64,000 bases of DNA from Alkalicella caledoniensis (lineage in GTDB: Bacteria; Bacillota; Proteinivoracia; Proteinivoracales; Proteinivoracaceae): the NCBI RefSeq assembly GCF_014467015.1, contig NZ_CP058559.1:2418001-2482000 (forward strand), in the 5' to 3' direction. Made by a program: the position numbers and the translations under genes. Shown here in pieces: positions 47,881-55,680 of the stretch; the first letter of the stretch is position 1, and each line of letters begins with the position of its first letter. The notes under the pieces are model-generated. The model did not search any database and was not told the DNA's origin. It saw only the letters and a list, made by a program, of their open reading frames with translations.

Positions 47881-49179
47881 ATGAAAAAAGGACTAAGTTT
47901 ATTACTTATCGCGATTTTGGCACTATCATTAGCTGCTTGTAGTGGCGGTTCAAACGACGACCCAAAGGGTGAAGCTCTCACGGCTGAGATTACTGTACAG
48001 GTTGAAGAAGATTGGTTAGCTTACTACGAAGCTGCCAAAGCTAGAGTATTAGAAAACAATCCTGATGCTAAAATTGAATTTATCGTCACAGGTTCCTTTG
48101 ACCATCTAAATGTACTAGATGATACAGACGTTACAAACGAAGACGTTGCAGACGTATTCGCTATCCCAGCTGACAGAATTTATACCTTATCACAAAATGA
48201 AGCTTTAGCAGCTTTAGATGCAAAGGCCATGGCATCTAACGTAGGTGGTTTCAGCAACTACGACGCTGGTCTAGGTGGAAACTTTAAAGTTAATGGCGAA
48301 TACCTAGCATTCCCAATGAACATCGAAACCCTTATCACTTTTGCAAACCCTGCAAATGCTGAAGATTTAGATGTTGACTTATCAGGTTCTGTTGAACTTA
48401 CTGAAGTAGATTTCGAAACTATATTAATACCTGTTTTCGATGCATGGTTCGGTGTTGCTGTCGCTAACGCTGGAGGTATTGAACTGTTAGGTAAAGATGC
48501 TCAAGGAAATCTTTTCTCTGATATGACAAAAGATTTCGCTGACTTAAACCAACAACAACAAGATGTTTTAACTGCACTTTATGACTATTGGAAAACACAT
48601 CATCAAGCTGGAACAGACCTTTGGGATGAAGACGCAGCTTGGGGCTACATGGATACACAGTTTGCTCCCGGTGGAAACACTGCTCTAAGAATAGAAGGTC
48701 CATGGTCTACTGGTAACTTAACAAACCATGCAGGTGGAAATGTTGAAATCCTACCAATAGGTCAAGTTACAATAGCAGGTCACCCGCTAACTCACTGGCA
48801 AGGTGGTTGGGGATTAGCTGTTAACTCTCGCGTTGAATTAGACGAAGAGAAAATGCTCCTTTCTCAACTTATGATTGAAGAAATTATGAATACTGACTAT
48901 GCAGTAGATTTATTCAAAGCTACTGGTAAAATCATGGAGAACGTTCCAACTTCTGTATATTTAAACTCTGACTTATCAGCAACTGACAAAGCTGTTATCG
49001 AAGCTGTAATCGAGTCTTACGAAGAAGCTCCAGCTCGTCCTCTGTTCACTGAATGGGGTCAAGTATGGGATACTTGGAAGAACTCACTTCTTTCATGGTC
49101 TTCTGTTAATCCACAGTCAGTAGAAGAAGCTTATGAGCAAATGAAAGCTTCATTCGATGCCTTGATGGCAAACTTCTAA
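47881..49179 (+). CDS. malE: Maltodextrin-binding lipoprotein of ABC transporter
   Basis: A lipoprotein signal ends at the lipobox LAAC (Cys20), followed by a SGGSNDD linker. The mature 410-residue part has the family 1 solute-binding layout: AEITVQVEEDWLAYYEAAKARV, VADVFAIPADRIYTLSQNEALAALD, YLAFPMNIETLITFANP, and LRIEGPWSTGNLTN. It is MalE-like, so it should bind maltose or maltodextrins outside the membrane. Codon use looks richer in preferred codons than its neighbours, as for a highly expressed gene. GGGGAGG precedes the ATG. Confidence 0.9.
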   Translation: MKKGLSLLLIAILALSLAACSGGSNDDPKGEALTAEITVQVEEDWLAYYEAAKARVLENNPDAKIEFIVTGSFDHLNVLDDTDVTNEDVADVFAIPADRIYTLSQNEALAALDAKAMASNVGGFSNYDAGLGGNFKVNGEYLAFPMNIETLITFANPANAEDLDVDLSGSVELTEVDFETILIPVFDAWFGVAVANAGGIELLGKDAQGNLFSDMTKDFADLNQQQQDVLTALYDYWKTHHQAGTDLWDEDAAWGYMDTQFAPGGNTALRIEGPWSTGNLTNHAGGNVEILPIGQVTIAGHPLTHWQGGWGLAVNSRVELDEEKMLLSQLMIEEIMNTDYAVDLFKATGKIMENVPTSVYLNSDLSATDKAVIEAVIESYEEAPARPLFTEWGQVWDTWKNSLLSWSSVNPQSVEEAYEQMKASFDALMANF

Positions 49180-49316: not shown

Positions 49317-49775
49317 ATGGATGGTTACACTAAATTACCTAGAAAACATCTATATTTTATTTTAGTATTTTGTGCAGTGATTATATTTGCTGTATCTTTG
49401 GAAACGATGTTTAGGGTGAAAGATATTGGCCTTTACCACAATTGGGTTGAAAACATGGAACTAATGGATAATCCACAGGTGTTAGAAGCAGAAATTTGGA
49501 ATGCATACCTAACAGCTAACCTAAGCCACTACTTCTTAACTGTCATTATACCAATGATATTTAGTATTCATTCTTATTTTGCTTTTGTAAAAGTCAGGAT
49601 AAGCGGGTTGTTTGTTTTTCTCTGGATAGTTTTAATACTAGGTGGCCTGGCATACACAGCTGTGGAGTTAAATTTTCATTCAGTTTTTTACTATATTAGA
49701 ATAGTGTCCTATTTAGGTTTGACAATTACAACATTGTCATTATCAAGCGTAATAAATGAAAGCAAACTCTTGTAA
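49317..49775 (+). CDS. Unknown four-helix membrane protein inside the mal operon
   Basis: The 152-residue protein has about four membrane helices (near 13-28, 69-90, 94-113 and 122-142), with an outside-facing loop between helices 1 and 2 (RVKDIGLYHNWVENMELMDN). No family is recognised. It lies between malE and the malF-type gene, ending 13 bp before the latter, so it is very likely co-transcribed and may assist the transporter. GGGGTAAGG precedes the ATG. The function is unknown. Confidence 0.7.
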   Translation: MDGYTKLPRKHLYFILVFCAVIIFAVSLETMFRVKDIGLYHNWVENMELMDNPQVLEAEIWNAYLTANLSHYFLTVIIPMIFSIHSYFAFVKVRISGLFVFLWIVLILGGLAYTAVELNFHSVFYYIRIVSYLGLTITTLSLSSVINESKLL

Positions 49776-49788
49776 AGGTGGGAGTACC

Positions 49789-51888
49789 TTGGCAAAACAT
49801 AAACAATTTTTATATGATGACATCGGAAATGAATATCAACGTAAAAACTTATATTTATTAGAACTTGCATTGTTAGAGAACAAGATTGAAGGGGCAGATA
49901 ATGCAAATAAAGACAAGCTTAAAGCTGAGCTTGCTGAGTTGACTAAGAGCAAAGCAACTCATCCATATAATCAAAAGTTAAGGGAATATGAAACAAAAGA
50001 AAGAGATTTTTTAAAAGCACTAAAAGAAAAGAAAAGAGCTTATATTAAAGATCTAAAAAAAGAAACTGATATGGCATATAGAATGAAGAATCTAAAGGTT
50101 CAGTTGTTAGATGCTCAAGAGAAAAATAGTTTCTATGGAAAATATATAGAGCTATGTTATGACGCTGAACTATCTTTCGATGAAAGTAAACTAAAATTAA
50201 AACATATCCCTGAAATAATTGCCACACTAGAGCAAAATCAAAGGGATTTAGCTGAAGCAATCAAAGAGAGTAGTAATATAGACCAACAGAAAGAAGTTAA
50301 AGCAAATTCAGAGATAAGAAAATACAAGGAAGACCAAAAAGTATTACTACAGGAAAACAAAAAAAGACTGAAGCAAAAAAAGAAACAAGGAACTATTTCA
50401 CAAAAGGCAATGAAAAATGGATTTTCAGAGTTAAAAACAAAGTTTAAAAAAGCCCTTGCAATTAAGAAGTTTGAGTCCCCTAAAAGGGCTAATAAAGAGC
50501 TTATAGCAAACAAGAAATATGAGATTAGAAATGGTACGAAACGCATGTTAAATGTCTTGTATGCTGATATAGCAGATGTAAGAAGAAAAACACCAATGGA
50601 AACAAAAAAACAGTCACCAATCTTCGCTTACCTTACTTTTTTAATTCCAGGGCTGGGACAATTATTAAATAAGCAGTATGTAAAAGCAGCTATGTTTTTT
50701 GTGGCTTCAATTTTCATCTACTTTGCTGCTGTACCTTATGCACTAGGTTACGGAAATTATCAAGGAGAAGGTATTGCAGGGCTTATATCCCTAGCTGAAG
50801 GTGGCGCAAGAATTCATAAGTCCCTTATATTTATGATTGAAGGGATTATCGCGTTATTTTTAAGTATAATTGCCATTGGTTTAATTGTAGTCTCATTTAA
50901 TGATGTACTAAAGGTGGAAAAACAGAAAATCCTTGGTATAAGACCGAAAAACTGGTTTGAAACCAGATCAGGCATTACACAAGAAGGGTTTCCCTACCTT
51001 GTTTCTTTTCCAGCCCTATTTGTAACAGTATTTATAGTTATGGTGCCTGTATTGACAACTGTGCTATTGTCCTTTACAAATATGGGACCTCAAACACAGT
51101 CGAAATTTACATGGGTGGGAGTAGAAAATTATAAAAGAATTTTTCTTGGGCAAGGGTTGGCAGGATCAACTTTTTGGTTAATTTTATTTTGGACAGTTAT
51201 TTGGACCTTGGCTGCTACTACTTTAGCAATACTTATAGGGTTCCTGCTAGCCATTATAGCAAATAATGAAAGAATTATTGGTAAGAAGTTTTTTAGAACA
51301 ATATATCTACTGCCATGGGCAGTACCTGCCTTTATAACCATAATGTTTTTTAGTATAATGTTCTCTCCAAGAGGAGCATTAACACAAATAATTGAAAACA
51401 TAACTGGAATATCTGTGGTTGTAAAATACAGCCCAACCTTAACTAGGTTAACCTTGATAGCGTTACAGGGATGGTTAGGTAGTGCTTATGTATTTTTGTT
51501 AACAACTGGCGTTTTACAGGCTATTCCTGGGGACCTTTACGAAGCTGCAGATATGGATGGAGCTTCATCTTGGCAGAAGCTTCGAAGGATTACGATACCT
51601 ATTGTATTGTTCCAGATAGCGCCACTATTGGTTACACAATATACATTTAACTTCAATAACTTTTCGATTATTTACCTATTTAATGGAGGAGGGCCATTTA
51701 ACCCCGTTAAATATGGAAACTTAGCAGGTTCGTCAGACTTGTTGATTTCCTACGTATATAAGTTGACAATCGAAAATCAATACCAAGCTATAGGTGCTGC
51801 AATTACCATATTTATATCCCTTGGATTGATGACGTTTGCCTTTATAGGATTTAAGAATTCAAAAGCCTTTAAAGAGGAGAGGTTATAA
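49789..51888 (+). CDS. malF: MalF-type permease with long N-terminal coiled coil
   Basis: The 699-residue protein has three parts. Residues 1-265 are highly charged and predicted coiled coil (KLKAELAELTKSKA, KKRLKQKKKQG). Residues 270-375 hold extra membrane helices starting with FLIPGLGQLLNKQYVKAAMFF. Residues 400-699 form a normal MalF domain with the EAA loop EAADMDGASSWQKLRRITIPI. It imports maltodextrins together with MalG and MalK. I prefer the TTG at 49789, with AAAGGTGGGAG upstream. The ATG at 49756 would overlap the previous gene and place that site in the coding region. The coiled coil is not part of normal MalF. Confidence 0.87.
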   Translation: MAKHKQFLYDDIGNEYQRKNLYLLELALLENKIEGADNANKDKLKAELAELTKSKATHPYNQKLREYETKERDFLKALKEKKRAYIKDLKKETDMAYRMKNLKVQLLDAQEKNSFYGKYIELCYDAELSFDESKLKLKHIPEIIATLEQNQRDLAEAIKESSNIDQQKEVKANSEIRKYKEDQKVLLQENKKRLKQKKKQGTISQKAMKNGFSELKTKFKKALAIKKFESPKRANKELIANKKYEIRNGTKRMLNVLYADIADVRRKTPMETKKQSPIFAYLTFLIPGLGQLLNKQYVKAAMFFVASIFIYFAAVPYALGYGNYQGEGIAGLISLAEGGARIHKSLIFMIEGIIALFLSIIAIGLIVVSFNDVLKVEKQKILGIRPKNWFETRSGITQEGFPYLVSFPALFVTVFIVMVPVLTTVLLSFTNMGPQTQSKFTWVGVENYKRIFLGQGLAGSTFWLILFWTVIWTLAATTLAILIGFLLAIIANNERIIGKKFFRTIYLLPWAVPAFITIMFFSIMFSPRGALTQIIENITGISVVVKYSPTLTRLTLIALQGWLGSAYVFLLTTGVLQAIPGDLYEAADMDGASSWQKLRRITIPIVLFQIAPLLVTQYTFNFNNFSIIYLFNGGGPFNPVKYGNLAGSSDLLISYVYKLTIENQYQAIGAAITIFISLGLMTFAFIGFKNSKAFKEERL

Positions 51889-52844
51889 TGAAGCTTTTTA
51901 ACCGTTTTAATAGAGATGATTTAGTTATTAACAAAAAACCTTTATTACCTTTCTTAAGATTTAGAAAAAAGGAAAGGCTATATCTGTCTGATAGGCAACC
52001 ACTAACCCTAATGGGGATATTAGGGTTAGGACTATCGTATGTTGTCCTCTTTGCCTGGGCATTTATTATAATATGGCCACTCTTACAGATGGTTATATCT
52101 GCCTTCAACGGTAAACAAGGGGCATACTTGATGCAAAACACTAACTTCGAATTTTCTTTGAAACATTTTGAGTACCTTTTTAGTGAAACCCTATATTTGA
52201 CATGGGTTAAAAATACATTATTTATTTCTGGTGCCACTGCTATACTGACCCTTATCATTGTATCCTTTACAGGTTATGCATATTCAAGGTATCGTTTTAA
52301 AGGAAGAAAAGCTTCCCTCATGGCTATAATGCTTATTCAAACAATACCAACATTTGCGGGCATAACAGCATTTTTTACCATGCACTCAATAATAGCATCA
52401 GTGATTCCACAATTCACAAGACAAATGATGCTGATACTAATTTACTCAGGTGGGGCAATAGCTAGTAATACTTTTATTCTGAAGGGGTATATAGACTCTG
52501 TTTCTACTGAACTTGATGATGCAGCGAAAATTGATGGATGCTCTAATATGGATGTATACAGACTTATAATACTTCCCATTGCACGTCCTATGCTTACCAT
52601 AATAGCCCTTTGGTCTTTCATAGGACCTTTTATGGATTATATGTTACCCAGGGTATTACTAACAAACCCTCAATCATATACATTGGCTGCTGGACTCTTT
52701 ACACTAACAAATGATTTTAGAACAATGAACCAACCAGCCTTTGCGGCAGGTGGTTTGTTAACAGCCATACCTATAGCAGTACTATTTATGTTGCTTCAAG
52801 ATCAACTTGTATCAGGGTTGGCAAAGGGTGCAGTCAAAGGTTAA
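51888..52844 (+). CDS. malG: MalG-type maltodextrin permease
   Basis: The 318-residue protein has six membrane helices and the MalG EAA loop ELDDAAKIDGCSNMDVYRLIILPIARPML. Other family blocks are WVKNTLFISGATAILTLIIVSF and GYAYSRYRFKGRK. It forms the channel with the malF product. The ATG overlaps the malF stop (TAATG), so translation is coupled. A roughly 40-residue cytoplasmic N-terminus precedes helix 1. Confidence 0.93.
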   Translation: MKLFNRFNRDDLVINKKPLLPFLRFRKKERLYLSDRQPLTLMGILGLGLSYVVLFAWAFIIIWPLLQMVISAFNGKQGAYLMQNTNFEFSLKHFEYLFSETLYLTWVKNTLFISGATAILTLIIVSFTGYAYSRYRFKGRKASLMAIMLIQTIPTFAGITAFFTMHSIIASVIPQFTRQMMLILIYSGGAIASNTFILKGYIDSVSTELDDAAKIDGCSNMDVYRLIILPIARPMLTIIALWSFIGPFMDYMLPRVLLTNPQSYTLAAGLFTLTNDFRTMNQPAFAAGGLLTAIPIAVLFMLLQDQLVSGLAKGAVKG

Positions 52845-52894: not shown

Positions 52895-53980
52895 ATGAAA
52901 GTTACTTTGAAAAACATAGGTAAGAAATATGAAGGACGGGAAGAGTTTACCTTAAAAGACATAAATCTTGAAATAGAAGAAAAAGATTTTTGTGTTATCT
53001 TAGGTCCATCTGGTTGTGGGAAAACAACACTACTGAGGATGATTGCTGGACTGAACTCCATAACAGAGGGTGACCTGTTATTTAACAATAAAAGAATGAA
53101 CAAAGTAGCACCAAAGGATAGGGATATCGCTATGGTATTTCAATCCTATGCACTCTACCCACACATGACAGTTTATGAGAACATGGCATTTTCCCTCACC
53201 ATGAGAAAAGAACGTAAAAAACTTATAGATGAGCGAGTTCGTGAGGCTGCCAAAGTACTTCAGATTGAAGACTATCTATACTCCAAACCATCTGATATAT
53301 CCGGTGGGCAGCGCCAAAGAGTAGCTCTAGGCCGTGCCATGGTAAGGAATCCAAAGGTATTCCTAATGGATGAGCCCCTATCCAACCTAGATGCTAAGCT
53401 TAGAGAGCACATGCGAGTGGAGCTTGTTAGACTGCATAAGCAGTTAGGTACCACAAGTATCTATGTTACCCATGATCAAACGGAAGCCATGACCATGGCA
53501 AGTAAAATAGTACTTATGAATGAAGGTAAGATTCAACAAGCCGGAAGACCCGATGAATTTTACAATAAACCTGCTAATATATTTGTAGCTAAATTTATTG
53601 GTTCACCTACAATGAATATCCTTAAAGGTACCATGGAAGATGGGAAATTTGTATCGAAGAATAAACTTATGGTAATAACACCATCTGAAGAAGATAGTAT
53701 TAAACTTAAATCCTATGAAGGACGTAATGTATCAGTGGGCATAAGGCCTGAAAGATTCGAAAGTGGTGGAGAGTTCGGTGACACCTTTAAGGCATTAGTT
53801 GAAGTTGTTGAGATGCTTGGAAAAGAAAAAATTCTATATGCCAAGATGGCAGATGGCCATGAACTAGTTATTTCTACACCAGGGCACTACAAATATAACG
53901 AGGGTGAGACACACTCCTTTGGTTTTGATATTGAAGCAATCCACTTTTTTGATACAGAAAGTGGAGAACGTATAAATTAG
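52895..53980 (+). CDS. malK: Sugar ABC transporter ATPase (MalK/MsmX/UgpC type)
   Basis: The 361-residue protein has Walker A GPSGCGKTTLL, Q-loop MVFQSYALYPHMTVYENMAF, signature ISGGQRQRVALGRAM, Walker B VFLMDEPLSNLDAKLR and switch His in YVTHDQTEAM. A C-terminal TOBE/regulatory domain (about 240-361; VSVGIRPERFE) follows. It drives the malFG permease. Some related ATPases serve several sugar transporters, but here it is within the operon. GAGGAGGG precedes the ATG. Confidence 0.94.
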   Translation: MKVTLKNIGKKYEGREEFTLKDINLEIEEKDFCVILGPSGCGKTTLLRMIAGLNSITEGDLLFNNKRMNKVAPKDRDIAMVFQSYALYPHMTVYENMAFSLTMRKERKKLIDERVREAAKVLQIEDYLYSKPSDISGGQRQRVALGRAMVRNPKVFLMDEPLSNLDAKLREHMRVELVRLHKQLGTTSIYVTHDQTEAMTMASKIVLMNEGKIQQAGRPDEFYNKPANIFVAKFIGSPTMNILKGTMEDGKFVSKNKLMVITPSEEDSIKLKSYEGRNVSVGIRPERFESGGEFGDTFKALVEVVEMLGKEKILYAKMADGHELVISTPGHYKYNEGETHSFGFDIEAIHFFDTESGERIN

Positions 53981-55296: not shown

Positions 55297-55680
55297 GTTA
55301 AAATTAAAGTCTGGCCTGCAACTGATCCAAGGTATGCTTCAATCTATGTTTATGGTGGTAAACGCTCAACCTTAGAGAGAATGTATAGTGGTCTTAAAGG
55401 TTATGCAGCTGTAGCTAGATTTACTAAACAATCATTTGATGGGTATTACTTGTATCGTGGGGATATAAAGTTAAGAGTTAAACAAGAAGAGACATTTGTT
55501 TATGTACCAACTGGCTTATTAACAAGTAGTAGACAATACAGAACTATGTTTACCCATGAGCTTGGGCATGCATTAGGTTGGAGAGGGCATAGTCCTGTAA
55601 AAGATGATGTAATGCATTCATCTTCTAATAAAGATGTTCTAACAGGAAGAGATAGAGCACATTTAAGACAAATGTACTAA
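55297..55680 (+). pseudogene. 5'-truncated matrixin-like zinc metalloprotease
   Basis: The frame from 55297 encodes KVWPATDPRYASIYVYGG..., then the metzincin zinc site HELGHALGWRGH followed by DVMHSSSN. The frame is closed by stops just upstream (55288 and 55294) and there is no usable start codon or ribosome site before the mature region. Related secreted proteins begin with a signal peptide, which is missing here. An internal ATG at 55381 would give 99 residues. A promoter-like TTGACT lies at 55261. It is probably a remnant, perhaps caused by deletion. Confidence 0.65.

Follow-up and report, generated by a model that had tools for sequence, protein, structure and literature searches.

The maltose importer is a textbook ABC importer, and in E. 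coli its MalF subunit combines a short N-tail in the cytoplasm with a large P2 loop in the periplasm. The malF gene of Alkalicella caledoniensis, within the 64,000 nucleotides analysed here as a whole (the window), places a long charged helical stretch before its permease. This raises the question of what that addition is, how it arose and what it might do for the transporter. We find, and consider nearly certain for both identity and architecture, that the malF product is the MalF of a separate lineage of ABC importers for maltodextrins, composed of MalE, a small protein with four transmembrane segments (4-TM protein), MalF itself, MalG and a MalK that is probably dedicated to this system.

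The malF gene and its membrane part

The gene occupies positions 49789-51888 (+), in a run of genes that reads, on the same strand, GH31, malQ, glgP, malE, the small membrane protein, malF, malG, malK and lacI. It is a single uninterrupted open frame of 699 amino acids, and its start codon is most likely the TTG at 49789, because a ribosome-binding-like AGGTGGGAG lies immediately 5' of it. More than 70 complete relatives align with the product over its full length, so we rule out a chance fusion, a chimera or the frame error that the original prediction had named as a possible refutation. Its description of a charged helical addition before a complete permease is therefore confirmed, in one intact frame that is conserved in relatives.

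The permease core (residues 385-699; 50941-51888, +) is recognised by several searches. PF00528 (BPD_transp_1) matches residues 481-679 with an E value of 1e-16 and 61.7 bits, against a gathering cut-off of 26.4; the best solved relative of the core in a PDB sequence search is MalF from the E. coli MalFGK2 complex (2r6g, 3fh6, 9bcr; E about 1e-43 to 8e-43); and Foldseek with the full AF2 model, in which the permease part is predicted at moderate confidence only, retrieved only permeases (MalF E 6e-11). The core contains the EAA coupling loop at residues 585-604 (EAADMDGASSWQKLRRITIP, EAADMDG...ITIP), where E585, A587, D590, G591, A592, I601, T602 and P604 are invariant, and A586 nearly so, in the alignment of relatives. 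The protein falls outside the E. coli-type equivalog NF008232, which matches only its C-terminal half (E 1e-53) and with 182.9 bits, below the curated cut-off of 392. Between TM3 and TM4, where that type has its large periplasmic P2 loop, our protein has only about 27 residues, separating the helices at 402-428 and 456-492.

Residues 275-384 (50611-50940, +) comprise an IPGLGQ region followed by TM1 and TM2, which had been taken for an extra membrane segment. We rejected this interpretation: short MalF proteins (430-465 aa) align with ours from query residue 254-285 onward, GLGQ motif included, and their own N-termini consist of such an IPGLGQ-like TM1-TM2 part. Judging from these alignments, the region is what Firmicutes MalF proteins ordinarily have as their N-terminal membrane part. 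The Pfam families for an IPGLGQ hairpin, DUF6677 and DUF5683, scored below their gathering cut-offs (19.9 vs 24.3 and 16.1 vs 26.7 bits, respectively).

Short Firmicutes MalF proteins of the MdxF/MalC type, of 430-460 aa, are energised by the shared ATPase MsmX. The nearest of them have in common with the long MalF a permease core with 45-49% identity, the IPGLGQ/TM1-TM2 region and the absence of a P2 loop, and both kinds of operon keep the order malE-malF-malG. Unlike the long form, the short-form system is devoid of the N-terminal domain, the 4-TM gene and a LYLSD motif in MalG (see below), and malK is usually not alongside. The window protein, with 699 aa and a folded domain, does not belong with the MdxF/MsmX-type proteins of 430-460 aa.

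The N-terminal helical domain

When residues 1-269 were modelled alone with AF2 using 33 relatives, they yielded eight helices, of which several span 30-39 residues, together with a small beta hairpin, at a mean pLDDT of 95.3 and a pTM of 0.83; the model of the whole protein shows the same N-terminal helices. Residues 1-268 (49789-50592, +), specific to the long form, are thus predicted to be a compact folded multi-helix domain rather than a mere coiled coil. Of the long coiled coil originally proposed, the approximately 268 charged helical residues remain and the loose coiled coil does not. From the established topology of MalF, the domain should lie on the cytoplasmic side of the membrane.

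Residues 1-268 gave no significant sequence match in Pfam, NCBIfam or the PDB, and Foldseek found no significant fold for the domain in the PDB. BAR domains headed the list with an E value of 0.35; the likeness to BAR/F-BAR domains (endophilin, PACSIN) is loose, limited to long antiparallel helices, and with E values of 0.35 or worse and a TM-score of about 0.3 they are not homologous. A single match outside MalF (E 1e-6, in genome G158) lies within an Rhs-like protein and was discarded as chance. We found no description of the MalF extension in the open-access literature, to which the search was confined, subscription journals being outside its scope, and in the libraries searched both the domain and the 4-TM family seem to lack a description.

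The rate at which the domain evolves is about threefold that of the permease core (mean distance 1.62 vs 0.46), as might be expected if it were a neutral addition, structurally stable, fixed once and kept through descent. However, residues D10, R18, F115, Y116, Y124, I203, S204 and A207 are invariant, its length is near gap-free from residue 121 on in the alignment of relatives, and every sampled descendant retains it, which makes neutrality extremely improbable. In most relatives the net charge of the domain is positive. Its conserved loops (HPY at 58-60, and 115-124, 200-207 and 266-271) would all be at the membrane end, if the long helices alternate and the last one enters TM1. Mean information decreases from 2.53 bits at the inferred membrane base to 1.58 at the tip (rho -0.41), along an axis deduced from the order of the helices and not from model coordinates.

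This gradient bears on the earlier idea that the domain is a scaffold on which GH31, MalQ or glycogen phosphorylase dock; imported dextrins would then be processed at the membrane. The three genes do precede malE in the window and in several relatives, but the inferred membrane-distal tip is the least conserved part of the domain, and any of the three enzymes is encoded nearby in only 26 of 57 well-flanked loci, all of which have the domain. For both reasons we disfavour enzyme docking, and consider it very unlikely.

Could the domain be a receiver of catabolite control, with HPr-Ser-P, a PTS protein or a metabolite imposing inducer exclusion on the importer? In E. coli, EIIAGlc acts on MalK in inducer exclusion. 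A cytoplasmic location and conserved polar invariants would suit such an input, as does the precedent of inducer exclusion established at E. coli MalK (4jbw), but Pfam and PDB fold searches found no known ligand-binding or receiver domain within residues 1-268. As an explanation by itself we deem signal input unlikely; it would fit within the clamp discussed below, since a sensory role in inducer exclusion is one form of a module acting at the inner face of the transporter.

Companion genes and origin of the long form

In a scan of genomes from 84,980 species, from which the best 80 loci were taken, nearly all of these 80 encode the full long form, of about 670-730 aa. The host organisms are found among the Tissierellia, the Clostridia and related groups, with Oceanivirga and Streptobacillus as representatives of the Fusobacteriota. 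The long form is rare across the phylum, with profile matches in 5 of 398 genomes, one of which is a chance match and three of which belong to the window's own family. Within one family, 43 of 130 genomes contain a long MalF, and no other type of MalF was found there.

The small 4-TM protein (49317-49775, +; 152 aa) was assigned by position, size and co-occurrence. Practically every complete long-form locus has such a gene, for 137-173 residues, between malE and malF, whereas in short operons malE runs directly into malF with no 4-TM gene between. To our knowledge, E. coli MalFGK2 has no 4-TM partner. Hydropathy indicates four transmembrane segments, basic ends and an acidic loop at 31-64; the protein is fast-evolving (mean identity 32%) and matched no Pfam or NCBIfam family. 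In the family of 130 genomes, 43 have profile matches to both the domain and the 4-TM protein (Fisher P 1.8e-29, a description and not a test, as the genomes are related), and we found no true case of a long-form genome without the 4-TM gene, which is directly upstream in 43 of 43. The membrane protein that the original prediction noted in the malF operon is, then, linked to the long form. Two genomes of this family matched the domain only, and they carry a degenerate MalF. Two weak partner-only matches (G843 and G853) turned out to be another gene, with unrelated neighbours, and were rejected as 4-TM proteins outside mal operons.

The remaining genes of the operon are distinctive as well. In malG (51888-52844, +), the motif LYLSDxxPLT, here LYLSDRQPLT at 51978-52007, is found in the cytoplasmic N-tail, immediately ahead of TM1; 76 of 81 long-form proteins and none of 45 short-form ones have it. 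Wherever a long-form locus has sufficient flank, malK (52895-53980, +) comes after malG, and position 84 of its product, by alignment to MsmX (6yir), is Ser in all 80 long-form copies (53144-53146 in the window). This residue neighbours the Q-loop and is Asn in MsmX and in every ATPase able to replace it, while the dedicated MalK of E. coli has Ser (PMC7658222), as in the long form. Of 45 loci with other types of MalF, three have a malK within the stretch examined, each with Asn, and 42 show none. Besides, apart from the operon MalK, no MalK-like ATPase exceeding 49% identity is encoded in the genome of the window. The operon MalK, with Ser84 and not the Asn of the MsmX type, is probably a dedicated ATPase. 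Finally, malE (47881-49179, +) appears to supply the same system with its substrate-binding lipoprotein. This protein is divergent: it has no match to a Pfam binding-protein family and only an E value of 6e-4 to the MalE model, though its identity among long-form loci is 45-69%.

In a tree of the permease core, all 37 long rows form one clade (100/100) with a stem of 1.26, nested within short MalF, and the type with a P2 loop forms a separate clade. From this nesting, the domain was most simply gained once. No loss was seen in the sampled descendants, and the extension, for which conservation across related mal operons had been named as supportive, characterises a whole lineage with a single origin. 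The Fusobacteriota proteins from Oceanivirga and Streptobacillus (L062, L069) branch inside the Bacillota clade, which suggests transfer of the long-form MalF between phyla.

Two species of one genus contain a degenerate protein resembling the long MalF (L122:7391-9681 and L183:1143-3433, both -), of 561 aa, with the helical domain partly kept and without a recognisable permease domain. It adjoins a degenerate MalK-like protein of 201 aa that has lost Walker A. Both frames are open in the two species, 84-86% identical and gapless, with dN/dS values of about 0.09 and 0.14, and the pair is apparently a remnant of the pump that has been retained for another purpose.

A possible module at the inner face of the importer

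The MalF domain, the MalG motif, the MalK interface residue and the 4-TM partner were gained jointly, which points to a module on the inner face of the transporter. We tentatively favour, as the most likely of several mechanisms, that the domain is an assembly or regulatory clamp acting at this face. On the cytoplasmic side the domain would be suspended from TM1, its conserved base lying next to the membrane and touching the N-tail of MalG, the MalK dimer and the inner side of the 4-TM protein; the clamp would keep the private MalK on its own transporter and may modulate the transport cycle. The earlier notion of a scaffold or load sensor survives only in this narrower form, as a module whose target is the transporter itself. 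A more specific proposal, possible but held with less confidence, is that the MalF domain, the 4-TM protein and the N-tail of MalG constitute an undescribed subassembly; this would make the system a five-component importer (E, F, G, K and a 4-TM accessory subunit), with a cytoplasmic bundle that controls or holds the private MalK.

Evolutionary distances lend this inner-face module weak support. After correction for the core, distances of the domain show partial correlations of 0.47 with the 4-TM protein, 0.36 with the MalK NBD, 0.35 with MalG, 0.14 with MalE and 0.11 with TM1-2, all of these values coming from genes within one operon. Alternatively, shared ancestry could have fixed the co-occurring features jointly, along a single stem branch, with no contact between them.

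That the 4-TM distances track the domain most closely, and that the 4-TM gene is fast-evolving and directly upstream, would likewise suit a role in biogenesis, the domain and the 4-TM protein helping MalF to insert or assemble while taking no part in the working pump. Nonetheless, a transient role would hardly call for a permanent cytoplasmic domain of 268 residues that two phyla have conserved, and we regard this explanation as distinctly unlikely.

A whole lineage with an added folded cytoplasmic domain, a membrane partner and a changed relation to its ATPase would represent a further mode of building or controlling importers, of relevance to how these move between shared and private ATPases. 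The single origin is clean and the nearest short relatives are without the domain, the partner and the MalG motif, so that deletion and domain-swap tests would be direct.

Elsewhere in the window, a frame of 99 aa (55381-55680) contains HELGHALGWRGHS, which resembles the zinc site of metallopeptidases; the frame is short, and is possibly a metallopeptidase fragment.
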